Below are positions 2,181 through 43,724 of a stretch of DNA of 64,000 nt, piece after piece (position 1 is the stretch's first letter; each line of letters begins with the position of its first letter). Made by a program: the position numbers and the translations under genes. The DNA comes from Candidatus Saccharimonadota bacterium (lineage in GTDB: Bacteria > Patescibacteriota > Saccharimonadia > Saccharimonadales > Saccharimonadaceae), in NCBI GenBank assembly GCA_028288995.1, contig JAQGHF010000002.1, positions 1 to 64,000 on the forward strand, given 5' to 3'. The notes beneath the pieces are model-generated. The model saw only the letters and a program-made list of their open reading frames with translations. It did not search any database and was not told the origin of the DNA.

Positions 2181-3749
2181 CTAAGTATGCGGGTGTAGCT
2201 CAGCTGTTAGAGCGCATCCTTGCCAAGGATGAGGCCCAGGGTTAGAGTCCCTGTACCCGCACCAAATATCTGAATTATGAGCCGTTAGGCTCTTTTTCTT
2301 TGCCTCGACGATGGACTTAAAGGGGTCGTTTAGTATATAAGACAGCTTTTTGTCCTTTAATTCAATGTTTGAAAGTAGGTATTCTAGCAACTTCTGTCTT
2401 AGCCCGTCATCGCTCTCTTTAAATAGCTCTTCGGCTCTCTGGGCTAGGTCTAACAGGTAAGAAGCAGTTACTTGGAATGTTTTGTTATCACTTGTTAGCA
2501 ACTTTAGGCGGTCGTTCAGTTCTTGCTGTTTCTTTTCTAGCTCAGTTGCAATTTCATCGTGGAATGTCTGAGTAATACGACCCTCAAGTAAGTCATAGTA
2601 GACCTTACGCATCTTTTCTTTGATTTTATCGTACTCGCTACGGGTCTGCTCGATGCTCTGGGTGAAGTATTGTTGTTGGTCATCGTGGCGATTACGTAGC
2701 TCGTCTATGACTTGTCCGAGCCACTGTTCGGGTATGTGTATAAATCCTACTTCCGACGTAACACCATCTATAATCAGACTTTCTGCTGTATTGGGATTAT
2801 TACACTTAGCATTGGCGCATCGTAGGTAAACTGTATTACGAGCCTTGAATGGCGACACAGCTCGACCGCAGTTGCCACATTTCACTATCTTTTTGAATGT
2901 GTAGTCCTTGCTGTCATACTTAGTTTTTTCGTGCTTACGAACATCACGAACACGTTGAACTTGGTTGTATAAACCACGGCTAATGAGTGGTGGATATTTA
3001 TGCGGATACCGTCTACCGTCGTGAACCATAAATCCACAATAAAACTCGTTATTTAAAATGCGTTCAAGAAATGCCTTGTTCGGTGCTTTACTGCCAGCGA
3101 TATTACTACGAAAGCCCATAGCACCAAGTTCTTTAGCAATTACTGCATAAGACATGCCACGTGCTCGTAGCTCAAATGCTTTTATGACGTAGTGTGCCTT
3201 TACCTCATCAACTTCTATGTCTTTGAGTGGCTTCTGTGCAGTACCGCCTTTCAACACGTTCTTGTAGCCGATAGGAGCACGATGTACCCAGATGCCATCA
3301 CTTAACATTTGTTCAAATCGTCGCTTAACATTATCGCTGATACTATCCGAGTAGTATTTTGCTAATGCCATACCGATGCCAAGCCTGAACCAGTCTGCGG
3401 CTGACGAGCCTTTGTCGATGTAAAGGCTATCATTTGGAAAGTGTAGCTCTATCTTGCCGAACTTAACGAGTTGCTGTAATTCTTTTACTTCTTCTTGGCT
3501 GCTATCGCGTGTCAGGCGGTCTATCTTGTCGAAGACTACGTAGCACAGACCTTTCTGCTGTTTGATATGTTCTACGAGCTTGTTGAACTTTTGACGTACG
3601 TCCTTGTGAGCACTCTCGTCAAACTCGTGGTACTCAGACGGTAATTGTTTTTGTTCTGCATATCGCTCAAGACGCATTTTCTGAGCTGGCAACGCTTTAC
3701 GTTGCTCAACATCTGATACTCGGGCGATTAGAATTAACTTTGTATCCAT
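2181..3749 (-). CDS. large serine recombinase (integrase)
   Basis: A 522-residue site-specific recombinase. Residues 5-150 form the resolvase catalytic domain with R10 and S12 (ARVSDVEQ, S12 the nucleophile) and the downstream DKIDRLTR stretch. About 160-270 matches the Recombinase domain (APIGYKNVL onwards). A zinc ribbon CGNCG...CANAKC sits near 290-315, then a coiled coil (about 355-410). Residues from about 496 are the antisense of tRNA-Gly (RDSNPGP), so the natural C-terminus changes on excision. The start has AAGGAG 12 bases upstream. It is last in a minus-strand operon behind rep. Expected role: integrate and excise the element at tRNA-Gly. Confidence 0.95.
   Translation of the reverse strand: MDTKLILIARVSDVEQRKALPAQKMRLERYAEQKQLPSEYHEFDESAHKDVRQKFNKLVEHIKQQKGLCYVVFDKIDRLTRDSSQEEVKELQQLVKFGKIELHFPNDSLYIDKGSSAADWFRLGIGMALAKYYSDSISDNVKRRFEQMLSDGIWVHRAPIGYKNVLKGGTAQKPLKDIEVDEVKAHYVIKAFELRARGMSYAVIAKELGAMGFRSNIAGSKAPNKAFLERILNNEFYCGFMVHDGRRYPHKYPPLISRGLYNQVQRVRDVRKHEKTKYDSKDYTFKKIVKCGNCGRAVSPFKARNTVYLRCANAKCNNPNTAESLIIDGVTSEVGFIHIPEQWLGQVIDELRNRHDDQQQYFTQSIEQTRSEYDKIKEKMRKVYYDLLEGRITQTFHDEIATELEKKQQELNDRLKLLTSDNKTFQVTASYLLDLAQRAEELFKESDDGLRQKLLEYLLSNIELKDKKLSYILNDPFKSIVEAKKKSLTAHNSDIWCGYRDSNPGPHPWQGCALTAELHPHT
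2189..2264 (+). tRNA. tRNA-Gly (GCC), integration target, unusual U19/A56
   Basis: A 76-base cloverleaf. The acceptor GCGGGTG pairs with TACCCGC, the discriminator is A, and CCA is encoded (2262-2264). The anticodon stem CATCC/GGATG holds TTGCCAA (anticodon GCC). The D-loop is AGCTGTTA, giving T at position 19 where G is near universal. The T-loop is TTAGAGT, giving A at position 56 where C is near universal. The two changes would allow a U-A pair in place of the G19-C56 tertiary pair. An integrative element abuts the 3' end, and the recombinase reading frame on the other strand runs through the whole gene. Confidence 0.95.
2279..2298 (+). terminator. terminator of tRNA-Gly
   Basis: The short hairpin GAGCC-gtta-GGCTC (2279-2292) is followed by TTTTT on the plus strand, 15 bases after the tRNA CCA. 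It lies inside the 3' coding part of the minus-strand recombinase. Confidence 0.7.
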
Positions 3750-3775: not shown

Positions 3776-4912
3776 TTACTTACCAGTATTTTCAATGTTT
3801 GAAAGGAAGTCTGACATACGTGTGGGTGTAAACCGTTGCAAGGCTTCGTCTATATGCAAGAACGAGGTAAAGCGGTATGCGTCTGGTGGTTTGAGTAAAG
3901 GCTTAATGCGATACCACGCCTGTTTGCCGTATACAGCTTCCAGTACATTTCGTAGACCAACAGCACCAACCTGACTGGTGATAATTAGCCCAGCAACCGC
4001 TGCAAGAGCGGCTTGGGGTGTTACGTTATCGTTCGCTTCAAGATAATTCTGCAATAGCTCATACGGCTCTTTTACGTCTAACGCCAGCATATCTACTGAA
4101 CTTGTTATTTTATTCCAATGCTTTAATAGAACGGCTTGGCACTTTTCTTTTGTGTAGAGGTTCTCAAATGTCCATTTATCTAATTCAGGATAGGCTCGCT
4201 TGATAGATGCTCTACCGACAAAACGTACTTCATATCTGAATACTTCCATCGGTCGGTATTCAGATAAACCCTCAAGTAGGTTGAGCTGCAAGTTGCTATC
4301 TTTTTCAAATGCACGTTTGCCGCTTTTCTTTGCTTTTCGCAGGTCTGCCATTTTGTCGTAAAAGGCTATATCAAGTGAGTTGGTGTGGATATGTACAACG
4401 TGTCCATCACGAAAATCCGTCTTCTGTAAATCATACATTTTACTTACATCTAATTTACCCATCGTATTGAGGATAGTCTGGCAAGATGTGTAATCAAGAA
4501 ATACAATGTTCTTCGACGGATGCCAAGCTGCAATATCAGCGTGGGCAAGTTGTGTCTTAAAGAACCGATGACCGAGTAATTCGTATAAAGACGATTGTAG
4601 TGCCGTCAGTAGAGCTTCAAAATCACTCTCTTTTAGCTCGTCAAAGTTATTGCCGAATAACATTTTAGGTGCTGAAAACTCAACCGCTAATTGATATACC
4701 ACGCCGAACTTTTGTACTCGTTTGTACATTGTTAAGCGTGGCATATACTTACCCATCTTTGCGTAGGTAGGCGACGGGTTAAGATATGTCTTGCCGTAGC
4801 CCCTACTATTCACAAGTTGCTCAAGTGAGATTGGTGAAAACCTGCCGCCATCGAAAATAAGTGGATTATGTACGGGTATCAGTAGCTTTACTGTGTCTAT
4901 CATAATGTTCAT
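3776..4912 (-). CDS. plasmid/phage-type replication initiator (Rep)
   Basis: About 378 residues. The middle (NSLDIAFYDKMADLRKA) carries the FYDK motif seen in phage gene II/X-like and related Rep proteins, followed by FRYEVRF, typical of the same fold. The catalytic tyrosine cannot be assigned with certainty; the Tyr in FYDK is not necessarily it. Family role: nicking at a double-strand origin to start rolling-circle replication. Two starts fit, ATG 4912 (MNIMIDTVKLL) or ATG 4903, both inside the end of the SpoVG-like gene. The recombinase starts 26 bases downstream. Replication of the excised circle is the likely job. Confidence 0.7.
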   Translation of the reverse strand: MNIMIDTVKLLIPVHNPLIFDGGRFSPISLEQLVNSRGYGKTYLNPSPTYAKMGKYMPRLTMYKRVQKFGVVYQLAVEFSAPKMLFGNNFDELKESDFEALLTALQSSLYELLGHRFFKTQLAHADIAAWHPSKNIVFLDYTSCQTILNTMGKLDVSKMYDLQKTDFRDGHVVHIHTNSLDIAFYDKMADLRKAKKSGKRAFEKDSNLQLNLLEGLSEYRPMEVFRYEVRFVGRASIKRAYPELDKWTFENLYTKEKCQAVLLKHWNKITSSVDMLALDVKEPYELLQNYLEANDNVTPQAALAAVAGLIITSQVGAVGLRNVLEAVYGKQAWYRIKPLLKPPDAYRFTSFLHIDEALQRFTPTRMSDFLSNIENTGK

Positions 4913-5177
4913 CACTTCTTTCAAATAATTCAATGCACTTTGCGACAATTGCTTGCTCAATCAATTTGCCAGCTTCTTTGGTTACGGGGTGAAAATAGTT
5001 AAGCTGTCGTGAGCCTATTCGCTTGGTCGGGTACGTTATTCGGTAACTTGTACCGTCTAACAGTTGATGTACACCCAACGAACCAACATAAAGTTGACCG
5101 TCAATTACACAACTTGCAAATGCCACAAGTCCGTCAGTAGGTTTTACTGGCGTAATGTTTACTTCGCTAACGACCAT
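4866..5177 (-). CDS. SpoVG-family DNA/RNA-binding protein
   Basis: 103 residues. The N-terminal 85 match the SpoVG fold: VSEVNITPVKPTDGLVAFA, a central VGSLGVHQL strand, ITYPTKRIG and YFHPVTKEAGKLIEQ at the helix. In Firmicutes and Borrelia SpoVG binds nucleic acid and affects gene expression. In mobile elements it often sits next to replication genes. It is coupled at both ends: its ATG overlaps the stop of the preceding small gene, and its 3' end overlaps rep by about 40 bases. A role in replication control of the element is inference. Confidence 0.75.
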   Translation of the reverse strand: MVVSEVNITPVKPTDGLVAFASCVIDGQLYVGSLGVHQLLDGTSYRITYPTKRIGSRQLNYFHPVTKEAGKLIEQAIVAKCIELFERSDEHYDRHSKATDTRT

Positions 5178-6769: not shown

Positions 6770-6802
6770 CACATCTCTCATCACTACAATTGGTAAGTGC
6801 TG

Positions 6803-6808
6803 TATAGT
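6803..6808 (+). promoter_or_regulatory. -10 box of a leaderless promoter
   Basis: TATAGT ends 6 bases before ATG 6815, so transcription would start at or next to the start codon. It lies in the divergent region with the minus-strand gene ending at 6769. Confidence 0.5.
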
Positions 6809-6814
6809 TATAGT

Positions 6815-7018
6815 ATGACACAATCTGGTAAAAGGCTGCCGAAGTTACTGACGCTCAGGGAAACGAGCGAACTGTTGAATTGCCATCCTAATACTTTGAG
6901 GGCTTGGGATAAAAAAGGTTACTTAGTGGCTGTCCGAATTGGGCTACGCAATGATAGACGCTATCGACGAGAAGACATAATGAAAATACTAGATAAGAAT
7001 AAAAACGATAATGTTTAG
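6815..7018 (+). CDS. MerR/excisionase-type HTH protein
   Basis: 67 residues. LLTLRETSELLNCHPNTLRAWDKKGYLVAVRIG is a classic HTH_17/excisionase winged helix: helix-turn-helix (residues about 14-32), then an RYRREDIMKIL wing and helix. Such proteins act as recombination directionality factors or small repressors. In an integrative element with a serine recombinase, an excision or regulatory role is likely. It appears leaderless and overlaps the next gene by 8 bases. Confidence 0.8.
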   Translation: MTQSGKRLPKLLTLRETSELLNCHPNTLRAWDKKGYLVAVRIGLRNDRRYRREDIMKILDKNKNDNV

Positions 7019-7518: not shown

Positions 7519-7752
7519 CTACACGCCGTCAAAAAAGTCTGATAGCTTGACTTGCAAACTCTTTGAAAGTACTAACAAGGTGCTGAGCTGTGGTGCTCGT
7601 CTACCTTGCTCAATATAGCCAATCGAAACCCTATCTAGTCCCGATATTGCAGCGAGGCTTTCTTGCGTATGACCCTTACGTTTACGTATGTCCTGTATGC
7701 GTTTGCCGAGTTTTAGCTGTAATAGCTTTAGTTCTTTGGTATTTCTTTTCAT
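7519..7752 (-). CDS. Cro/C-type HTH regulator (XRE family)
   Basis: 77 residues from ATG 7752. The HTH_3 domain is complete: KLGKRIQDIRKRKGHTQESLA, then ISGLDRVSIGYIEQGRRAP and LSTLLVLSKSLQVKLSDFF. It is close to restriction-modification controller (C) proteins in size and position. It is divergent from the mod-res operon, with two identical-type palindromes between them (7792-7806 and 7850-7864). Expected role: autoregulation and timing of restriction-modification expression after the element enters a cell. Confidence 0.85.
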   Translation of the reverse strand: MKRNTKELKLLQLKLGKRIQDIRKRKGHTQESLAAISGLDRVSIGYIEQGRRAPQLSTLLVLSKSLQVKLSDFFDGV

Positions 7753-7791
7753 TCTACTGTCCACGCTACGTATATGTGAACAGTTAGACCA

Positions 7792-7864: not shown

Positions 7865-7883
7865 CAAAAGAGAGAAATATGTG

Positions 7884-9641
7884 ATGACTAAAACCCTTGA
7901 AGAATATACCAAAGATGAACTTATAGACATTATTAAGGGTCTAAAACACCGCAAAAAGTTCGGCTTGGTATGGGAAGATAAGCCAGAAGAAATAGTAAGG
8001 CTATGCGAAGCGAACTTACCCGTCGTCGAAGAAGTAAGTGAACGAGCAATCGAGAAACTAAAAGACGCTCCTACTAGCTTCATCATTGAGGGCGATAATT
8101 ACCATTCACTCACTGCATTAAACTATACTCACGCTGGAAAAGTTGACGTCATCTATATTGACCCGCCGTATAACACAGGCAACAAAGACTTTCTCTACAA
8201 TGACCGCTACATTGATAGCGAGGACACGTTTAGGCATAGCAAATGGTTGAGTTTTATGAGCGAGAGGCTACGACTGGCAAAAGAGTTGCTTGCTAATGAT
8301 GGAGTTATTTTCATCTCAATTGATGATAACGAACATTCATATCTGAGGATTTTGTGTAATCAGATTTTTGGCGAAGAGAACTTCTTAACTAACCTCAACA
8401 TTCAAGTTCGGTATGCGGGTAAGAGCCTCAATGAAGAAAAGGCTTTCAAGCCTCTATTCGAGTACGTCCTTGTATACGCTAAGAACAGCAAACTATTTGA
8501 ACCAAATCGTCCTAAAGAGCAATACACGTCCGACAAGTTCATATATCAGGTTGAAGAACTTGGTAAGGGCGACGAAATAGAAGTTAATGGACAAAAAGTT
8601 ACTGTATTCAAAAAAGGACAATGGAAACTGGTTAAGCACGAAGATGGTGCGAACAACCTTTTGAAAGAAACGTGGATAAGTGGCAGCATATACACGACTA
8701 TGAGCTACGGAAAAGTATTCCAGTCGGTAGTTGAGCCTAGATTGGCAGAAGATGGCTTAGGAAGCCTCTACAAGGTACACGGGCGTGGTGATGACGGCTT
8801 AGGCTATCGTTATTACACAGCCCCTCAGAAAGCTAATGCCACACGAGGAAAGATGTATTCAGGTATGCCTTTATCGAGAGTAGAAGAAATGGGTACAGTT
8901 GAGGGTGCGATACGACTTGCTCCAATTCCTAACTTTTACGATTTTAGTGCTGATTTTGGCAACATACGACACGAGGGCGGTATCGGTTTTAATAGCGGCA
9001 AAAAGCCTGTCAAAATGTTGAAGCAGCTTATCAACTATCATAAACGTACAGACGTTACCGTACTGGACTTCTTTGCTGGCTCAGGTTCAACTGGACACGC
9101 CGTAATAGAGGCTAATAAAGATGATGGTGGTAATCGACGTTTTATTCTTTGTACAAATAATGAAGCCAACATTGCAGAGGAAGTAACCTATCCTCGGATA
9201 AGTAATGTGATAAACGGTTACGCTGGCTATAAAGGCATACCCTCAAATGTTAGATATTTTAAAACTAGCTTGATACCTAGACAGCAGACGGATGACCAAA
9301 CTCGCATTGAGCTTGTTGCACGTAGCACCGATATGATATGCCTACGTGAAGATACTTTTGAAGCGATAATTGATACCAAGATGTTCAAAGTATTTGGTAA
9401 TAACGAACACTACTCAGCAATCGTATTTGAACCAGAGGCAATCGTACTTTTGAAAGATGCCCTTGAAAAACTCAAGGATAGCAAAGCTATTCATATTTAC
9501 GTTTTCAGCCTGAGCAATGACACATACGAAAGTGATTTTGCCGACCTTGAACGTACTCACGATTTACGACCAATACCAGAGAGTATTCTTGAGGTTTACC
9601 GACGTATACATAAAGACCAAAATGTAAGGTTGGGGGCGTAA
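7884..9641 (+). CDS. mod: type III R-M DNA methyltransferase (Mod)
   Basis: 585 residues from ATG 7884 (a GTG lies one codon earlier). It is a beta-class N6-adenine methyltransferase: catalytic motif DPPYNTG at residues 93-99 comes before the SAM-binding FAGSGSTG motif at about 395-402. The central region between them is the variable target-recognition part. Mod methylates one strand of an asymmetric site and gives specificity to the Mod2Res complex. The stop overlaps the start of res by one base (TAATG), the usual coupling. Full length and intact. Confidence 0.95.
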   Translation: MTKTLEEYTKDELIDIIKGLKHRKKFGLVWEDKPEEIVRLCEANLPVVEEVSERAIEKLKDAPTSFIIEGDNYHSLTALNYTHAGKVDVIYIDPPYNTGNKDFLYNDRYIDSEDTFRHSKWLSFMSERLRLAKELLANDGVIFISIDDNEHSYLRILCNQIFGEENFLTNLNIQVRYAGKSLNEEKAFKPLFEYVLVYAKNSKLFEPNRPKEQYTSDKFIYQVEELGKGDEIEVNGQKVTVFKKGQWKLVKHEDGANNLLKETWISGSIYTTMSYGKVFQSVVEPRLAEDGLGSLYKVHGRGDDGLGYRYYTAPQKANATRGKMYSGMPLSRVEEMGTVEGAIRLAPIPNFYDFSADFGNIRHEGGIGFNSGKKPVKMLKQLINYHKRTDVTVLDFFAGSGSTGHAVIEANKDDGGNRRFILCTNNEANIAEEVTYPRISNVINGYAGYKGIPSNVRYFKTSLIPRQQTDDQTRIELVARSTDMICLREDTFEAIIDTKMFKVFGNNEHYSAIVFEPEAIVLLKDALEKLKDSKAIHIYVFSLSNDTYESDFADLERTHDLRPIPESILEVYRRIHKDQNVRLGA

Positions 9642-11950
9642 TGATTGAGCTAAAAGAATATCAACAAGCTGCTGTAAGTGAACTTTTAAAACAGACTAGG
9701 GGCTTGCTCGCTAGTTCGGGTGATAAGGTTTGTGTTTTTAAAGCTCCGACTGGCTCAGGTAAGACGATTATGATGGCTGAGTTGTTACAAAGGCTCAGCG
9801 AAGAAGACTTGCAGGGTGAGTACGTTTTTGTTTGGACGAGCCTTTATGACCTACACTCACAGAGTAAAGCTAAGCTCGCAAGTTATTTGCAGGACACTCG
9901 CTACAAGCTATTGAGCCTAGATGAGATAACTCAAGAACAGCTAAGTGAAAATAGCGTCTTATTCGTGAACTGGCACAGTTTAACAACAACTAAAAAGAAT
10001 AGCGAAAGCAACCAGCGTGATTGGTCAAATGTGTACGTCAAAGACCGTGAAGATGGTCGAAGTATCGTTGAGGTGCTTGAAAAAACACGTGAGGCTGGGC
10101 GTCAAATAATACTGATTGTTGACGAAGCTCATCGAAATTATATGACCGAAAACTCACAGCGGTTTATTACGGAAGCTATCAAACCTAAGCTAACAATCGA
10201 AGTATCTGCTACGCCTCTGTTTAAAGTTGATGCAGAAGATATGATGAACAAAAAAGCTGGTTTCGTTAGTGTTCCTTTTGACGAGGTTGTAAGCTCAGGG
10301 TTAATAAAACAAGAAACAAGTATCAACCAGTCCATCGGTGATTATGTTGATATTTCAAACTCAGCTGACGAGTTAGTAATTGAAGCTGCATTGGCGAAAA
10401 GAGCCGAGCTTAAATCCCTGTTCTTAAACGACGGGTCAAACATCAATCCCCTCGTACTTGTGCAGTTACCAAGTGATAGCGAAAAGACTTCTACGCTAGA
10501 TAAAAGTGTCCGAGAGGAAGTTGAACAACAACTTGCTAATCACGGTATTACATACGAGAATGGCAAATTAGCCGTCTGGCTGTCTGATGACAAGCAGAAC
10601 CTTGAGTTAATCGAAAAGAATAGTTCGGAAGTAGAAGTACTTATATTCAAAGAGGCTGTTGCTGTCGGCTGGGATTGTCCACGTGCTCAAGTTCTTGTGA
10701 TGTTACGTGCAATTCGTTCTCTTACTTTTGAAATACAAACCGTTGGTCGCATTTTGCGTATGCCTGAGGCTAAACACTACGAAATAGCAGAATTAAATAA
10801 GGCATTTGTTTATACGAATATATCTGGCATCAACATAAACAGTAAGCCCGAAGACTTGGACTTTTTTAAAAACATCTTCGTTCATAAAAAAGACGACATA
10901 AATGACGTAAAGTTACCAAGCGTATATTTGCACCGCCAAGACTACGGCGACCTAACCGCTAGTTTTAGCAACATATTAGTCGAAACACTTAATGAGCGTT
11001 TTGGCATCCAGCAATCAGATATGGTAAACGTAGCGTATGATAAGGCTGATGTAGAGCTTGAGTTGTATCCAGAAGAACTAAAAACACCTATTATTGCCGA
11101 CGTGGTACTTCATAATCTCGATACTGTTCAAGACGAAATTGGTACACTTAACCTTGAGAATATCCAAGCAGATGTAAGCGATGCGAATATACAGAAAGAG
11201 TTTGATTACTTGTTAAAAGCGTGGTGCTTACCTTATGCACCTGTTCGTTCGTTCTCAAAGGTAAAAACGGCTATATACAAATGGTTTAACTATATCGGTT
11301 ATGACCAAAGTAGGTGGCACGAAGTACAGCGTATTATTGCTTGCTCGGCTAAGAACCAAAGAGTGTTTGACGAGATTATCAAGACTGCGAAACTCAAATA
11401 CGAAAGCGTCAAACCAGCCGAAATTGCAAATAAGAAGACTACTTCGTATAGCACCTTTAGTTTGCCAGAAAGCGATATGTTTGGCGAAAACTACGAGCTA
11501 GTGCAATCGGGTAAGTACCCATACGAACAATGCTATTTACGCAAAGACCGCTCAGAGCCTGAGCGATATTTTGAACGCTTGCTTGAGGATAGTAATAATG
11601 TTGAATGGTGGTACAAGAATGGTGAAGCTCAACAGCAATACTTCGCTCTTAGTTATCAAACCGTTGATGAAGAAACTAGGTTGACTAAACTAGCGAACTT
11701 TTACCCAGACTACATCGTACGTTATACAGATGGCAGCACTGGTATCTATGATACAAAAGCAGGACGTACGGTTACTGAGCAGCCAACACACGATAAGTCA
11801 GATGCTTTACAAGCGTATATCAGCGAACAAAATGAAGCGGGAGCTAATCTGAGTGGCGGCATACTTAATAAGCGAGCCGATGGCATTTACGTATTTACTG
11901 GTTCTGAATACACACCTGACCTTGATAGGTGGCAACGCTTCACGGTATGA
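9641..11950 (+). CDS. res: type III restriction endonuclease subunit (Res)
   Basis: 769 residues. Superfamily 2 helicase motifs are in order: KAPTGSGKTIMMAEL (Walker A, about 34-48), DEAH (about 162-165), SATP (about 188-191) and QTVGRILRMPE (motif VI, about 366-376). The C-terminal nuclease domain shows PDYIVRYTDG...GIYDTKAG (about 688-708), the PD-(D/E)XK-like pattern of Res proteins. With Mod it cleaves DNA between two head-to-head sites after ATP-driven translocation or sliding. It ends with a 4-base ATGA overlap into the next gene. Confidence 0.95.
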   Translation: MIELKEYQQAAVSELLKQTRGLLASSGDKVCVFKAPTGSGKTIMMAELLQRLSEEDLQGEYVFVWTSLYDLHSQSKAKLASYLQDTRYKLLSLDEITQEQLSENSVLFVNWHSLTTTKKNSESNQRDWSNVYVKDREDGRSIVEVLEKTREAGRQIILIVDEAHRNYMTENSQRFITEAIKPKLTIEVSATPLFKVDAEDMMNKKAGFVSVPFDEVVSSGLIKQETSINQSIGDYVDISNSADELVIEAALAKRAELKSLFLNDGSNINPLVLVQLPSDSEKTSTLDKSVREEVEQQLANHGITYENGKLAVWLSDDKQNLELIEKNSSEVEVLIFKEAVAVGWDCPRAQVLVMLRAIRSLTFEIQTVGRILRMPEAKHYEIAELNKAFVYTNISGININSKPEDLDFFKNIFVHKKDDINDVKLPSVYLHRQDYGDLTASFSNILVETLNERFGIQQSDMVNVAYDKADVELELYPEELKTPIIADVVLHNLDTVQDEIGTLNLENIQADVSDANIQKEFDYLLKAWCLPYAPVRSFSKVKTAIYKWFNYIGYDQSRWHEVQRIIACSAKNQRVFDEIIKTAKLKYESVKPAEIANKKTTSYSTFSLPESDMFGENYELVQSGKYPYEQCYLRKDRSEPERYFERLLEDSNNVEWWYKNGEAQQQYFALSYQTVDEETRLTKLANFYPDYIVRYTDGSTGIYDTKAGRTVTEQPTHDKSDALQAYISEQNEAGANLSGGILNKRADGIYVFTGSEYTPDLDRWQRFTV

Positions 11951-13320: not shown

Positions 13321-13977
13321 ATGACTGAACAGCAAGATGATTACACGTGGCGACCAAATGGCTTGCCAATTAAGGCTCAGGGTATAGCACTTGAGCCTAT
13401 TCTTGCGTTCAAACACTTTGTACAGCCAGCATTGAGTGATGTGAATTGGATTGAAGATAGCGATGACGTAACCGACACGACTATGAGTAAACGTGAATGG
13501 ATTGGTTTGATTGTACACGCTATCGCTCTATCGGATTTAACAGGCGATAAGTTGAGAGTAGCTAAGATGCTTGATAATGATGATGGCGGTTTAGTCCGAG
13601 GCGAAAGTGAAGCGGTGTACGTTGAGCAAACATTGGCAACGTATCGAGATAACAAAAAGCATAAATCCTTACTTGAAGCTGTTGATGCTCGGGTTCAGAG
13701 TAAATCGTCAAAAGGTCAAAACTACGCAGATAATATGCACTTGATAGTATTTTGTAACATCAACGGCGATATGCAGGAAGATGAGTTAGCTAAAATCGTA
13801 TCTAAAGGACGCTTTAATATCGTGAACATCTTTGGCTTCAACAGTAATGACAGGCATTACTTATCTTTTCTATTTGATAAAGACAAACCAGATGCACCTA
13901 TTCACAGGGTTGCTATCAGTGAAGCCGAGCTAGTAAAGGCTGCAAACCAATTACCCGAAAGTCCTGCTAAGCATTAA
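13321..13977 (+). CDS. unknown soluble protein at the right end of the element
   Basis: 218 residues, acidic, no membrane helix. Not recognised. A central motif region (NYADNMHLIVFCNINGDMQEDELAKIV split about residues 135-160) shows a buried beta strand LIVFCNI followed by a helix, suggesting an alpha/beta nuclease- or phosphatase-like core, but no catalytic residues can be named. ATG 13321 is chosen from the -10 box; an in-frame upstream extension has no start signal. A minus-strand frame overlaps its last 11 bases. Confidence 0.65.
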   Translation: MTEQQDDYTWRPNGLPIKAQGIALEPILAFKHFVQPALSDVNWIEDSDDVTDTTMSKREWIGLIVHAIALSDLTGDKLRVAKMLDNDDGGLVRGESEAVYVEQTLATYRDNKKHKSLLEAVDARVQSKSSKGQNYADNMHLIVFCNINGDMQEDELAKIVSKGRFNIVNIFGFNSNDRHYLSFLFDKDKPDAPIHRVAISEAELVKAANQLPESPAKH

Positions 13978-14098
13978 GTAACTCGCCCGATAGGTTGAAC
14001 TGTTCAACTAAGTGTTTGAGCTTATAGTTATCAACCGCCTCTATTGCAGCTGTTTGTAATGCGTCAACTATCCTGCACCAAGCATGAGCATTATTCAA
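13967..14098 (-). CDS. small minus-strand frame at element/island junction, possible gene remnant
   Basis: A 43-codon frame opening with TTG (LNNAHAWCRIVDALQ...) and ending FNLSGELLNA. The frame stays open for about 45 more codons upstream without an ATG. Its first codons and leader (TGAATAATGCTCAT after a hairpin) match the start of the HTH gene at 16726, but the protein then diverges completely. Like the two HTH genes, it overlaps the stop of a convergent gene. It may be an element gene end fused to the 5' remnant of a third HTH paralogue. Real translation is doubtful. Confidence 0.3.
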   Translation of the reverse strand: MNNAHAWCRIVDALQTAAIEAVDNYKLKHLVEQFNLSGELLNA

Positions 14099-14135
14099 AA
14101 CAGAGTCCGATTGCCGAAAATCGGGCTCTGTTTTT
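14074..14135. repeat. about 60-base repeat, copy 1
   Basis: TGCACCAA + (A)TGAGCATTATTCA + hairpin + T-run, homologous to 16704-16763. The hairpin arms differ between copies by changes that keep pairing (T-G to A-T and A-T to G-T). Its CAAGCATGAGCATT (14079-14092) is also the mirror of AATGCTCATGCTTG at 14179-14192, a perfect 14-base inverted repeat. Confidence 0.65.
14100..14135 (+). terminator. terminator, copy 1 of homologous hairpin
   Basis: Stem ACAGAGTCCGATT/AATCGGGCTCTGT (14100-14112 with 14119-14131, one G-T pair) followed by TTTTT. It ends plus-strand transcripts from the 13321 gene. The same hairpin recurs at 16731. Confidence 0.75.
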
Positions 14136-14225
14136 AGTTCACTATGACCGAGTGTGTAGAGCGGGAGTCGGTTCTCTAAATGCTCATGCTTGCTACCCCT
14201 CGAGAAAGCACTTAATCTATAAGTA

Positions 14226-16289
14226 GTGACAAAAAGTCATAAAAATGACATCGTCGTCAGAACACAAGAGCAAGAGCGCGTACAACGCTTTCTATTAAGT
14301 GAGCAAGGCGGTTCATTACTTTTAGGGGGCGATCGTGGCTCGGGCAAGACAACACTTGTCAGGGCCAGTGTTCAAGCTGCTGAGCAAGAACGTCTGGATC
14401 GAATGAGCCCTTTTAGCCGCGTCTTGAGCCGGTTACGACGACTTACAAAGTCGCCATACATCTTCATCAGCATTCCTCTTATAGTGATCGATGTTTCGGC
14501 AGTTGAGGGTACTGAGCCGGATCAGTCAAGGCTGAATGATAGTTATCGATCACTGCTTATGCGCGCGATGCTCATGGGGATGGAAGCTGACTTATTGAGG
14601 CGATACTATTCTTGGCTTGACCTGCCACAGCGCTGGTTTCGATCTATCGGCTACTTTCAGCGCATTACATCGCTCAGGTCTTACTCGCACTATACAAAAC
14701 AGACTAAAACAGTCACTCGAGCACTTGCTGTCCCTGCCAGTTTGATGAACTCGCCCGCACTGCAAGATGCACTATCTGCAGAAGTAGACCTATCGGATAG
14801 TGGCCTTGAAATGAAACTTCGAGATCTTCTGACTCAATATTCGAAGCTCCATAGGTTTGTATTCGTATTTGATGAGCTTGACAAACTTCCTGCGTCTATC
14901 AAGTTAGAGAGCTTGGTACTCCACCTAAAGAACCTTTTTGCAGAAACCGGGGTTCATGCGATTTTTATAACTGACGAGCTAGCCCTTCGGAGGGTGATGA
15001 ATCAGGCACTGGCGATTCCGCCATCAGAACTCACGACACTATTTGTCGATCACGTGTTGCTGAACAATATGTCGCGCGACGAATTTGAAGAAACTGTTCT
15101 TAAGAAGGTAGTGAACCTACCGGCCGATAAAGCGGGTGAACTGATTGCAGCGCTTTCATTAAGAACTCGGCGTTCGCCATATGAGCTTTCGAAGTTTCTC
15201 ATTAGGAATGGCGCGGAGTACTCGAACCTCATAGCTCAATTGAAGTCAGAGCTAGGTAAAAAGCGATTCGAGAACTTGAGTGTAATGCAGCGCTTAACTG
15301 ATTCCGTTGTTGAGATATACACAAATGAACATAATGATCCCTACTACAGGCGCATACTTCAAACAGCACTTGAGGAAGTAGGAACCATCATCGTAGGTGG
15401 TAGCTCAAAGTATGTAGATCAAGAGGTTCCATCCACGATCTTTTATACGACAGAGTCCTTCAACGAAGAAGGGCTCACTCCTGAAGCGGTTTTTGAACGA
15501 GAACTCGAATTCAAACACAGTAGAAAAAATTCACCCGCGGAACGACCACAGATCGTCGACACTATAAGCAATCTTCCAGAAGACCAATCCGTCTCGGTGA
15601 AGCTTGCAATAGGAACTTTCCTGACACTGCTCGATAGGAGCTACATACTTCTTCTCAAGAAGACCGAGCATCACGATGTTCTTGAAATCGGCCGGCTTGT
15701 CGAGTCGAATTTGTCACACGAACGTGTCAATCAGATAGACATGGACAAGGTATTCGACTTGTCGAAAGACGAAGACGCTGTTCTGTCAAAAATTGAAATA
15801 TTCGATCGCCCTTATTTAGGAGTCTCTAAGAAACACATTTACGGTCAGAACAAGATCGTGCACCGTACAGTGCTGAATGAACTCGTGGCGGACAGTAAGT
15901 ATTCGCTTTCCAATTGCCGAGCTGAATGGGGAGAACTGAAGACTGTTGCAAAAGATACTGATCGAAAGCTATCTCGCATGCTGCTCGGGAAGGTTAATGA
16001 GTTTGTGACACCTGGTGTTGGTAAATACACAGCCACCCGGAACGTATCTTTCATTACGACTGCAAACGGAAGAAAATTCATGTTTGTTACGCTGATCGGT
16101 AATCAAAGATTCAGGCAGCTGCCGGGCTATGAAAAGATTTTTGTGGTTAGAGACGTGAGCGCGCGATCAAAGATGAATAAGCCAACTCCCGAAGTAAAGA
16201 ACTTCAAGATGAACAATGTGAACTGGACGAACTTTGAAAGCGTTGCGAAGCATATAGGCGAGTGGATGGCCGTAGTTCAAAACAGCTAG
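14226..16289 (+). CDS. KAP/AAA-like P-loop NTPase
   Basis: 687 residues starting with GTG. Walker A is GGDRGSGKTT (residues about 34-43) and Walker B FVFVFDELDK (about 211-220), with a long insertion of basic helices between them. A sensor-like segment (HAIFITDE, about 245-252) follows. The C-terminal 250 residues are an unassigned mixed domain (KYSLSNCRAEW to IGEWMAVVQNS). KAP-type and other standalone NTPases of this shape are frequent in defence islands, and this one sits beside an integrative element with restriction-modification genes. No membrane helices typical of classical KAP proteins are seen, so it may be another AAA/STAND branch. Stop overlaps the convergent HTH gene by 4 bases. 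Confidence 0.75.
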   Translation: MTKSHKNDIVVRTQEQERVQRFLLSEQGGSLLLGGDRGSGKTTLVRASVQAAEQERLDRMSPFSRVLSRLRRLTKSPYIFISIPLIVIDVSAVEGTEPDQSRLNDSYRSLLMRAMLMGMEADLLRRYYSWLDLPQRWFRSIGYFQRITSLRSYSHYTKQTKTVTRALAVPASLMNSPALQDALSAEVDLSDSGLEMKLRDLLTQYSKLHRFVFVFDELDKLPASIKLESLVLHLKNLFAETGVHAIFITDELALRRVMNQALAIPPSELTTLFVDHVLLNNMSRDEFEETVLKKVVNLPADKAGELIAALSLRTRRSPYELSKFLIRNGAEYSNLIAQLKSELGKKRFENLSVMQRLTDSVVEIYTNEHNDPYYRRILQTALEEVGTIIVGGSSKYVDQEVPSTIFYTTESFNEEGLTPEAVFERELEFKHSRKNSPAERPQIVDTISNLPEDQSVSVKLAIGTFLTLLDRSYILLLKKTEHHDVLEIGRLVESNLSHERVNQIDMDKVFDLSKDEDAVLSKIEIFDRPYLGVSKKHIYGQNKIVHRTVLNELVADSKYSLSNCRAEWGELKTVAKDTDRKLSRMLLGKVNEFVTPGVGKYTATRNVSFITTANGRKFMFVTLIGNQRFRQLPGYEKIFVVRDVSARSKMNKPTPEVKNFKMNNVNWTNFESVAKHIGEWMAVVQNS

Positions 16290-16726
16290 CACGAGTGATT
16301 ATTAGCTCTAATCACTTTTAATATCGTGTGGTGACTGAACCCAAGCTTCTTGCTAATTTGCGTGCTCGCCATACCAGCGACCCACATCTCACGAGCCTTC
16401 TCTTTCTGCTTCTCGCTCATTGACTTTGACCGACGAACTTCAATACCAAGTATTCGAAGATGCGACCGCACAGTCGTGACCGAGATGCGAAACTCACGAG
16501 CTACTTGGCGCATGTTCTTCGTTTCTTCATAGCGAAGCGCAAGGCGGTCAATATCTTCTGGAGTCAGACGGTAATTCCGACCATGTTCGTAGGCGAGTCG
16601 CGGCCGTCGGGCTTCTGCCAAAATTGAGTGAAACAAGCCTCCTCGGACCATGACGAATAGACGTTTTAGAGGTTCCGTCAGGTTCGAGAGCTGTACCGTT
16701 AGGTGCACCAAATGAGCATTATTCAT
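16286..16726 (-). CDS. double helix-turn-helix protein (resolvase-type HTH), paralogue 1
   Basis: 146 residues. YRLTPEDIDRLALRYEETKNM... then VAREFRISVTTVRSHLRILGIEV is one HTH (about 50-92). SEKQKEKAREMWVAGMASTQ followed by ISKKLGFSHHTILKVIR is a second (about 97-140). Both resemble the HTH_7/homeodomain-like units behind serine recombinase catalytic domains, but no catalytic domain is present. About half of residues match the protein at 18155-18580. DNA-binding regulator or orphan recombinase tail. Its 5' leader coincides with a plus-strand terminator hairpin. Confidence 0.75.
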   Translation of the reverse strand: MNNAHLVHLTVQLSNLTEPLKRLFVMVRGGLFHSILAEARRPRLAYEHGRNYRLTPEDIDRLALRYEETKNMRQVAREFRISVTTVRSHLRILGIEVRRSKSMSEKQKEKAREMWVAGMASTQISKKLGFSHHTILKVIRANNHSC

Positions 16727-16763
16727 TTATAGAGACCGGTTGCCCTGCATCGGTCTCTTTTTT
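16704..16763. repeat. about 60-base repeat, copy 2
   Basis: TGCACCAAATGAGCATTATTCA followed by the hairpin and T-run, homologous to 14074-14135. The two copies flank the NTPase and first HTH gene as direct repeats 2.63 kb apart. Confidence 0.65.
16731..16763 (+). terminator. terminator, copy 2 of homologous hairpin
   Basis: Stem AGAGACCGGT/ATCGGTCTCT (16731-16740 with 16749-16758) then TTTTTT. It would end a plus-strand transcript running from the NTPase gene antisense through the HTH gene. Confidence 0.75.
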
Positions 16764-16857
16764 GCTAAACCCTAAAGGGGCTATAGAACCCCACCTCTGT
16801 AAGTATGTTGTATTTATCTCAGGTTTAGCTCATAATCCGCCACAGGAGAACGAGAGC

Positions 16858-17451
16858 ATGGCCCAGAGAAAAAAGTGGCAGGAGAAACAACCAAAAGAAC
16901 GAGTATTTACAGTCGTCACACGTGCGATTCTCGTTGTGGTTGGCCTGGCACTTTTTGGGACGATCGTTTCGGCTACGCAGCCACACTCAACATCCACTTC
17001 AAACACTGCAACCCAGACCGTTAAGACCGTACCGGTCATTACGCATAAGACTGATGTTCAGACGAGCGCAATCCCTTATTCATCTACGACTCAAAACGAC
17101 TCAACGAAAACATCTGGTACGTCGACTGTCACTATTGCCGGCGTAAATGGGGTTGAGACTAAAACTTACGACGTCACATTAACCAATGGAGTTGAAACAT
17201 CTCGCTCAGTAGTGAGTGAAGAGACGACGACAGCGCCGGTTGCTCAAGTTACGACTGTTGGTACTCACGCTGTGCCGTCATGTACGAACGGAACTTACGT
17301 GAATTCGGCAGGCAACACGGTTTGTAGCCCCGAGACCAGCTCGACCACGCCAGCTGGTGCAACTGCACAGTGCTCTGACGGAACGTATAGCTTTAGTCAG
17401 TCTCGGAGTGGGACGTGTTCACATCATGGCGGCGTGGCTACCTGGCTCTAA
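16858..17451 (+). CDS. secreted/anchored protein with G5-like and DUF3761 domains
   Basis: 197 residues from ATG 16858, supported by AGGAGA 9 bases upstream. A basic N-terminus is followed by a membrane helix (TVVTRAILVVVGLALFGTIV, about 19-38), then a Ser/Thr-rich linker and a G5-like repeat (about 75-130: GVNGVETKTYDVTLTNGVET). The C-terminus is the DUF3761 signature CSDGTYSFSQSRSGTCSHHG GVATWL split by a space (about 172-197), with conserved Cys and His-His-Gly. Likely anchored outside the cell, with a possible role in wall or host-surface binding. Confidence 0.85.
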   Translation: MAQRKKWQEKQPKERVFTVVTRAILVVVGLALFGTIVSATQPHSTSTSNTATQTVKTVPVITHKTDVQTSAIPYSSTTQNDSTKTSGTSTVTIAGVNGVETKTYDVTLTNGVETSRSVVSEETTTAPVAQVTTVGTHAVPSCTNGTYVNSAGNTVCSPETSSTTPAGATAQCSDGTYSFSQSRSGTCSHHGGVATWL

Positions 17452-17501
17452 AACGCTACTGCTTGCACTATGTCGGGAACGGCTCATAATCATTCGCAGA
17501 T

Positions 17502-18158
17502 ATGGTGATTGATTTTCTCAACTCTGGTTTCTTCATTGCTCTACTCGGCACAACTGGTGCTGTAACTGCATACGTTCTCTATCGGCGCAGGATCGGGAAT
17601 CAGAAAAAGGATGCGGCAAACATTGTGTCACTTGAGCTTCAAAAAGCTAAACGTCAAATTGGTGTAGCAAGTAAACAAATTCGTGATGCGAACGGTGATG
17701 AAACGAAGATGCTAGCTGAAGACACTTTCTTGATGCCAAATGAGAGCTGGTCGAAGTACAAATACCTTTTCGTGAGAGATTTCGATAGAGATCAGTGGGA
17801 CGCCATTTCAACTTTCTATGACAAAACAAAACTCTTCGACATGGCGGTGGTTGAAAACAATCAGGCTTTTGCGAAGAATGCAGATCAGATCCGTATTTCT
17901 ATGAGTGAAGCTATAAAAAAGATTCTGGAGGACCATATAATTCAGAATCCAACAAGTAAGGTTGGCTCGGCTTTAGAAAAGACTGCAATCGCAAATGCCA
18001 AGAAGGCACACGATCTGATCATCAATAGCAATAACCTTTACGACTACTCACCACGCAAACCTGTCGTTGATGCCCAGGCACTTCTTGCCGTGACCAAAGA
18101 ACAGAGCATTGATTCCGTAATTACAATTCTCAAGAAGATTGCAAAAATAAAGAATTAG
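17502..18158 (+). CDS. membrane-anchored unknown protein
   Basis: 218 residues. One N-terminal membrane helix (GFFIALLGTTGAVTAYVLY, about 9-27) and a cytoplasmic helical domain with SWSKYKYLFVRDFDRDQWDAI in the middle. The one-helix-plus-helical layout resembles small mobile-island membrane proteins of unknown function. It ends with a 4-base overlap with the second HTH paralogue. Confidence 0.65.
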   Translation: MVIDFLNSGFFIALLGTTGAVTAYVLYRRRIGNQKKDAANIVSLELQKAKRQIGVASKQIRDANGDETKMLAEDTFLMPNESWSKYKYLFVRDFDRDQWDAISTFYDKTKLFDMAVVENNQAFAKNADQIRISMSEAIKKILEDHIIQNPTSKVGSALEKTAIANAKKAHDLIINSNNLYDYSPRKPVVDAQALLAVTKEQSIDSVITILKKIAKIKN

Positions 18159-18580
18159 ATCTGAGAAGATCTGTCCGTCCGTACAGCCCTCAAAATCGTG
18201 TGGTGGCTGAAGCCAAGTTTCTTGCCAATCAATGTGCTTAGCATGCCGACGGCCCACATCTCAAGAGCCTTTTGCTTTTGCAGTACAGTCATCGATTTCG
18301 AGATGCGGACTTCAATGCCAAGTGCTCGAAGATGAGACCGAACGGTCGTTTCTGAGATTGCAAATTCACGAGCAACTTGGTGCATGCTTTTTAGCTCGTC
18401 GTAGCGGCTAGCTAGCATCTCCATTTCTGTAGGAGAGAGCCTGTTTTGTTGTTTGGCTTCTGACAGCCGTACTCGTGGCGTAGCTGCCAAGATGACTTCA
18501 AAGACTCCGTCCTGCAAAAACCCGAAAAGCTGTTTAACGGGGACCGTTGGGTTCGCAAGCACCTCGCTTCGGTGCACCAT
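18155..18580 (-). CDS. double helix-turn-helix protein (resolvase-type HTH), paralogue 2
   Basis: 141 residues. Same two HTH units as the 16286-16726 gene: NRLSPTEMEMLASRYDELK plus VAREFAISETTVRSHLRALG, then KQKALEMWAVG plus IGKKLGFSHHTILRAVR. The near-identical core and diverged ends suggest old duplication and positional selection. It overlaps the stop of the convergent gene by 4 bases, as paralogue 1 does. TGGTGCACC at its start is shared with paralogue 1. Confidence 0.75.
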   Translation of the reverse strand: MVHRSEVLANPTVPVKQLFGFLQDGVFEVILAATPRVRLSEAKQQNRLSPTEMEMLASRYDELKSMHQVAREFAISETTVRSHLRALGIEVRISKSMTVLQKQKALEMWAVGMLSTLIGKKLGFSHHTILRAVRTDRSSQI

Positions 18581-18626
18581 CGAAAACGTCTTACGTCAAG
18601 TAGGGCTTTTTTGTTATTATAGATAT

Positions 18627-43591: not shown

Positions 43592-43666
43592 TGGGGATTC
43601 GCCAAGTGGTAAGGCACTGGTTTCTGGTACCAGCATTCGGGGGTTCGAATCCCTCATCCCCAGCCA
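43592..43666 (+). tRNA. tRNA-Gln (CTG)
   Basis: A 75-base cloverleaf. TGGGGAT pairs with ATCCCCA, the discriminator is G, and CCA is encoded. The anticodon stem CTGGT/ACCAG holds TTCTGGT (CTG). D-loop GG and T-loop TTCGAAT are canonical. TACAAT 12 bases upstream may be its -10 box. Confidence 0.95.
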
Positions 43667-43724
43667 AGATGATTATGCTTAAAATAACGAGAAATCGTCA
43701 TTTTTTGTTTGCTACAATATACAT

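Follow-up and report, generated by a model that had tools for sequence, protein, structure and literature searches.

Tandem integrative elements behind a tRNA-Gly gene in a Saccharibacteria genome and the apparent origin of their terminal helix-turn-helix gene in a split serine recombinase

Introduction

The 64,000-nt stretch of DNA analysed here (the window) comes from a Candidatus Saccharibacteria genome, the group to which nearly all of the nearest relatives of its HtpX protein belong. This 0.84-Mb genome of a tiny episymbiotic bacterium contains, within the window, a run of modules in which a plus-strand gene converges on a minus-strand gene that starts beside a hairpin. In two of them the minus-strand gene encodes a double helix-turn-helix (HTH) protein. 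Why should the same minus-strand end be attached to different plus-strand genes? The first-pass annotation had offered two answers, a moving or duplicated unit and an excludon-like control circuit. The former is borne out here in the form of elements inserted at the end of a tRNA gene; the latter is not. We consider it likely that the modules are integrative elements stacked in tandem after the CCA of tRNA-Gly, and that the HTH protein is the C-terminal part of a recombinase that was split off at insertion.

Results

The array begins at a tRNA-Gly(GCC) gene (2189..2264, plus strand; ARAGORN), the 3´ end of which, GCACCA, served as the site of insertion; the same 6-mer recurs in both HTH right ends, and tRNA-Gly is an insertion hotspot in relatives too. 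The first element opens with the catalytic part of a large serine recombinase (2265..3749, minus strand; Pfam Resolvase, Recombinase and Zn ribbon), which provides it with an integrase of its own; both HTH-bearing elements of the window lack one. An unannotated open reading frame follows (3776..4960, minus strand) that looks like a replication protein by eye only and has no match in Pfam or NCBIfam. The cargo includes a type III restriction-modification system (7881..11950, plus strand, with Mod at 7881-9641 and Res at 9641-11950; Pfam, PADLOC). The stretch from the recombinase region to the restriction genes also has a small MerR/HTH_17-type, excisionase-like gene (6797-7018) and an opposed small gene that appears HTH-XRE-like by eye (7519-7764). 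The right end is a 43-aa minus-strand frame (13967..14098; WCRIVDALQTAAIEAVDNYKLKHLVEQF...), apparently the severed native tail of the recombinase.

An att core, GCACCA at 14075..14080, forms the junction with the second element (14081-16710), the left end of which (14081..14200, plus strand) comprises RCATGAGCATTATTCA and a terminator hairpin at 14097-14134. Its cargo is a 687-aa P-loop protein of the AAA_16 type (14226..16289, plus strand; Pfam), for which PADLOC gives no match, and its right end is HTH1 (16286..16726, minus strand), a double-HTH gene resembling an int(C), whose codons overlap the next core copy at 16705..16710. The third element (16711-18579) has its left end at 16711..16790 (plus strand; terminator hairpin 16731-16758) and carries a G5 and DUF3761 protein (16852..17451, plus strand; Pfam) and a 218-aa protein (17502..18158, plus strand), a 37% identical homologue of which occurs in an element of genome G459. 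It ends in the double-HTH gene HTH2 (18155..18580, minus strand) with a core at 18574-18579. Past the end of the array lies a terminator (18588..18606, plus strand), probably the displaced native terminator of tRNA-Gly; a similar sequence is found beyond the HTH gene of genome G158.

HTH1 and HTH2 are paralogous double-HTH genes, as the first-pass annotation had it: the proteins are 56% identical, each has two HTH domains, and they are the sole two copies in the genome. In the predicted fold, confidence is confined to the two HTH bundles, and matches to bipartite DNA-binding domains are weak. The 4-nt overlap of each gene with the stop of its plus-strand neighbour is real but carries no information, such overlaps being ordinary in these compact genomes; within the same stretches, an overlap of exactly 4 nt occurs in 6/30 convergent pairs with an HTH gene and 10/99 other convergent pairs. 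The frame at 13967-14098 had been counted as a third member of the set. It does share the leader exactly, and it is genuine coding sequence, given 61% identity across 41 aa with a frame at the same position in another genome, but it encodes no HTH protein. At the DNA level, this right end and that in G158 share 76% identity along 102 bp. The leader is common to this frame and HTH1 because each is adjacent to an element left end of the same type.

The leader consists of a 14-mer, ATGAGCATTATTCA, that is identical at 14084 and 16712, and together with the hairpin it is 77% identical over 60 nt (E 7.7e-6), in agreement with the proposed homology of the hairpins. The repeat of about 60 bases, which had been put forward as a possible recombination junction, is indeed one. 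The genome has a third exact copy of the 14-mer, immediately 3´ of a tRNA-Ser CCA and again ahead of a terminator, and in the third module of the array a terminator (18588-18606) likewise lies directly past the HTH2 start. In other genomes, a 20-mer of the leader occurs after the CCA of tRNA-Gln or at the start of an HTH gene the product of which is only 27% identical. The first bases of the HTH genes are TTGGT.. or ATGGT.., which read ..ACCA on the opposite strand, and past this start come a short spacer and then a terminator, as is found 3´ of a tRNA gene. The hairpin beside each HTH gene is a terminator, belonging either to the left end of the element that follows or, displaced, to the tRNA.

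Other roles for these sequences were rejected. As a widespread regulatory motif ATGAGCATTATTCA is too rare (12 sites in 394 genomes, against 3 for the reversed control) and is tied to element ends; one of the matches (G078) is probably an ordinary tRNA trailer. A hairpin RNA with a function of its own was also rejected: the hairpins are terminators with a sequence that differs by element, and Rfam recognizes only the tRNAs beside them. The left-end sequence after tRNA-Ser (L044:7207-7270; host contig C5:239203) has no HTH right end nearby and may be a solo left end or a decayed element. One left-end subfamily has three copies of TGTACCGAT at nearly fixed positions, about 52, 156 and 204 nt from the tRNA CCA, together with AACAGAGGTC (e.g. 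L049:4003-4220, L050:3710-3930 and L053:1723-1943). In this subfamily TGTACCGAT and a second motif are enriched 15- and 30-fold over background and are candidate binding sites. Some elements also have a tRNA T-arm-like sequence, GGTTCGAGTCCCG.

The relation between right ends and tRNAs extends well beyond the window. Among 40 right ends, 28 have a sense tRNA in the stretch fetched (the other 12 have none), and in 27 of these 28 the right-end 6-mer NNNCCA equals the last six bases of the nearest sense tRNA (automatic pairing; 10.7 by re-pairing, P<5e-5), many of the loci belonging to other families of the class that were discovered after the hypothesis had been formed. The sole mismatch is G159. 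The matches comprise Gly, Ala, Val, Leu, Gln, Pro, Arg and Ile tRNAs and loci from several families; since tRNA ends as different as GTACCA (Leu), CGACCA (Pro) and CAGCCA (Gln) are among them, the right ends follow the tRNA that they sit behind. An empty site is found at the tRNA-Gln(CTG) gene of the window (tRNA 43592-43666; with native trailer and terminator 43592..43714, plus strand), where tRNA and trailer are uninterrupted and the homologous site in G090 is occupied. The left flanks of the two sites are 75.6% identical over 2.2 kb up to the tRNA and the right flanks 98% over 55 nt from the core on, with 8.6 kb intervening in G090. The G090 insert consists of tandem units, each with a terminal HTH gene, and the remnant of a third HTH gene; in G194 a single 3.7-kb unit lies behind the same tRNA-Gln. 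On the evidence of core match and empty site, the HTH gene starts within a copy of the last six tRNA bases, and the element is placed directly 3´ of the CCA.

In L055 (G022 contig 28) and L057 (G091), HTH right ends again occur in pairs, at distances of 1-3 kb and some with internal stops, and point to further decaying tandem arrays. A perfect 27-bp copy of the tRNA-Gly 3´ end, as from a classical tRNA-duplicating element, lies to the right of the tRNA in G105 (L172 raw 11378-11404).

The gene at the opposite end of the first element helps to place the HTH protein. The open frame of the window recombinase continues to 2181 as tRNA antisense (..NSDI followed by WCGYRDSNPG..), and its C-terminus is therefore encoded by the tRNA. 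The 43-aa right-end frame, which reads WCRIVDALQTAA..., is in the same phase, and rejoining the two yields a single frame of 532 aa. In a related clade the corresponding right-end part is the double HTH. Here a single G041 protein of 749 aa combines two HTH domains with Resolvase, Recombinase and Zn ribbon; it is the only complete recombinase-HTH fusion found, and it matches CcrC weakly, with a score far below the CcrC cut-off. G135 has a split pair at tRNA-Ile, 52% (recombinase) and 27% (HTH) identical to the G041 protein, with halves 21 kb apart at opposite element ends. The halves of a second split pair (G136) are 5.3 kb apart, with a DNA methyltransferase-like gene between them. In-frame rejoining is found in 3/3 cases (G135, G136 and the window recombinase with its 43-aa end); when the window recombinase is joined to a mismatched end, that of HTH1 or HTH2, there is no read-through into the HTH. 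The core is in phase 0 in 14/14 recombinases of the window-type clade, across different tRNAs, and in phase 1 in 7/7 G041-type recombinases of at least 34% identity, as well as in the HTH right ends; these are related and not independent sequences, hence no probability is attached to the counts. Two recombinases of the G041 clade (G007 and G030) have no recognisable HTH within the stretch fetched. From the fused and split forms, the double HTH appears to be the detached C-terminus of a large serine recombinase with the att core in its own gene.

In G158, G105 and G135, the DNA following tRNA-Gly matches the left end of the first element at 87-90% identity for as much as 410 nt. Between ends like those of the first element, G158 carries a cation-efflux gene with an ArsR-type regulator and G105 copper-type genes (both named by eye), and the G105 element ends with a frame similar to that at 13967-14098. 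Window 14081-18579, G158 and G105 all combine retained attL and attR, loss of integration genes and tandem order, and by this layout G158 and G105 show the pattern of elements that have kept their ends and lost their integrase (CIME-like). Defence genes recur in related elements, including SIR2-HerA, Shedu (SduA), an OLD/GajA-like nuclease, AriA-like ATPases and restriction systems (PADLOC/Pfam), and defence is a main load of these elements. A conserved protein of about 150 aa starting M.RLT (the MPRLT family; e.g. L052:2863-3336, L053:3248-3718 and L054:6906-7313, among others) occurs in about 15 of 388 family genomes, mostly inside these elements and immediately ahead of the HTH gene; it has no match in Pfam or NCBIfam, and its predicted structure no fold match in the PDB. 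An origin from phages or plasmids was considered and rejected: viral contigs have no relatives of the recombinase or the MPRLT protein, and plasmids give only partial recombinase matches. In G194 contig 12, a phage-type tyrosine recombinase (L047:2561-3439) lies a few kb from an HTH right end, beside an OLD-like defence gene.

Discussion

The modules can be accounted for by the following scheme. The ancestral HTH would have been encoded at the 3´ end of a large serine recombinase gene spanning attP, as the DNA-binding C-terminus of the enzyme, and in the circular form recombinase and HTH would be one frame or adjacent co-oriented genes. Integration at the tRNA would split this gene, such that the catalytic part remains at the left end, with its tail swapped for antisense tRNA, and the HTH part is left stranded at the right end. 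In each element the 6-bp tRNA-derived core would then be followed by the left end with its terminator, the cargo and finally an HTH gene on the minus strand, whose start falls within the following copy of the core. The two HTH elements of the window exemplify small elements that would have lost the catalytic half, retaining both ends and the HTH gene, and that are presumably moved in trans. The sequences show the site, the core, the empty site, the tandem arrays, the split and fused gene forms and the conserved frame. Beyond these, the serine recombinase would perform the cutting, the splitting of its gene may regulate excision, the HTH protein may bind the element ends, and the small elements could be mobilised in trans. 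The HTH protein may also act as an excision factor, and the integration state may alter the activity of the recombinase.

Excludon-like control, in which the plus-strand mRNAs would cross the antisense HTH genes, end at the hairpin and regulate the HTH, is very improbable. The geometry of the window permits it, with plus-strand terminators just past each HTH start, but the partner genes vary and are unrelated across elements, the convergent spacing is ordinary and not clearly different from background, and no conserved antisense pair with opposing function was found among them. At least one HTH homologue elsewhere (G111) is without convergent overlap, its cargo being non-convergent. The hairpins are explained as tRNA or element-end terminators and lie where they do because of where the elements insert. 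Another reading has the small elements moved by an Xer-type or phage-type tyrosine recombinase, with the serine recombinases as unrelated residents of the same tRNA hotspots. The 3´ ends of tRNAs are classic targets of tyrosine integrases, the host genome encodes one tyrosine recombinase (307 aa, away from the array), the HTH locus on G194 contig 12 has one a few kb off, and the 27-bp tRNA-Gly repeat in G105 is typical of such elements. With regard to integron gene cassettes, which are defined by an IntI tyrosine integrase and attC sites, the host genome has this single tyrosine recombinase. Nevertheless, with a core of merely 6-9 bp or so, and a serine recombinase that is in frame with the HTH in G135 and G136 and fused to it in G041, we regard this reading as unlikely.

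It is possible, if somewhat doubtful, that tRNA-end elements exist as described while the double HTH is an independent gene beside attP, encoding an excision factor or regulator. The fusion in G041 would then be secondary, and the exchange of the recombinase tail a neutral by-product of an attP at the 3´ end of the gene. The HTH may be such a gene, merely abutting attP, because the majority of elements have an intact HTH gene and no recombinase or fragment of one, and most HTH genes have a usable TTG or ATG start of their own at the core; in G171, moreover, recombinase fragment and HTH seem adjacent instead of fused. What argues against independence is the core frame, conserved within recombinase clades across tRNAs, the in-frame rejoining of three split pairs and the full fusion in G041.

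Origin of the HTH by splitting of a serine recombinase thus remains our preferred explanation, and it allows a further proposal, which we put forward tentatively and at somewhat less than even odds. The split integrase may free the double HTH as a switch (excision factor or repressor), and the HTH end may have come to typify a large family of very small elements at tRNA ends, through which defence genes spread among Saccharibacteria. If the explanation is true, the self-splitting logic of archaeal tyrosine integrases evolved twice, being present in bacterial serine recombinases too, and poses the same puzzle of how such elements persist. For Saccharibacteria, which are ultrasmall and depend on hosts, the elements would also be a definite means of acquiring and exchanging genes for phage defence and metal resistance, with the NNNCCA core and the HTH right end as exact marks for mapping them. 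A literature search, the coverage of which excluded most subscription journals and preprints, found neither a serine-recombinase counterpart nor such elements in Saccharibacteria.

Several known systems share parts of this design. The staphylococcal cassette chromosome uses large serine recombinases (Ccr) and, at a single 3´-end target, forms arrays in which some elements have a recombinase and others do not. The present elements differ from it in that their targets are tRNAs and their core overlaps the gene of the recombinase. That elements lacking an integrase accumulate in tandem is already known from CIMEs and ICE/IME (PMC5704250), where such elements likewise keep attL and attR and are stacked next to a complete one at a single site; here, by contrast, each has a right-end HTH gene, the elements are tiny defence or resistance cassettes of 2-5 kb, and mobilisation is presumed. 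In the integration-dependent immunity of mycobacteriophage BPs, attP lies within the repressor gene (PMC4557955), and integration alters the C-terminus of the protein, as here, except that the repressor is changed in BPs and the recombinase in the present case. The closest likeness is to the archaeal SSV-type (“suicidal”) integrases, which have the att site in their own gene, are split on integration and were described in a 2021 review as exclusive to archaea (PMC8371274). Common to both are an att core within the integrase frame and, after integration at a tRNA, halves of the gene at both element ends. SSV-type integrases are, however, archaeal tyrosine recombinases with Phage_integr_3 and a C-terminal catalytic domain in int(C), whereas the present enzymes are bacterial serine recombinases with N-terminal Resolvase and Recombinase domains. 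Judged by its organization, the serine recombinase works like an SSV-type suicidal integrase and is not a member of that class. Tandem accretion and an attP within a gene are known; the self-splitting design has so far been described only for archaeal integrases, and its bacterial serine version would be new.
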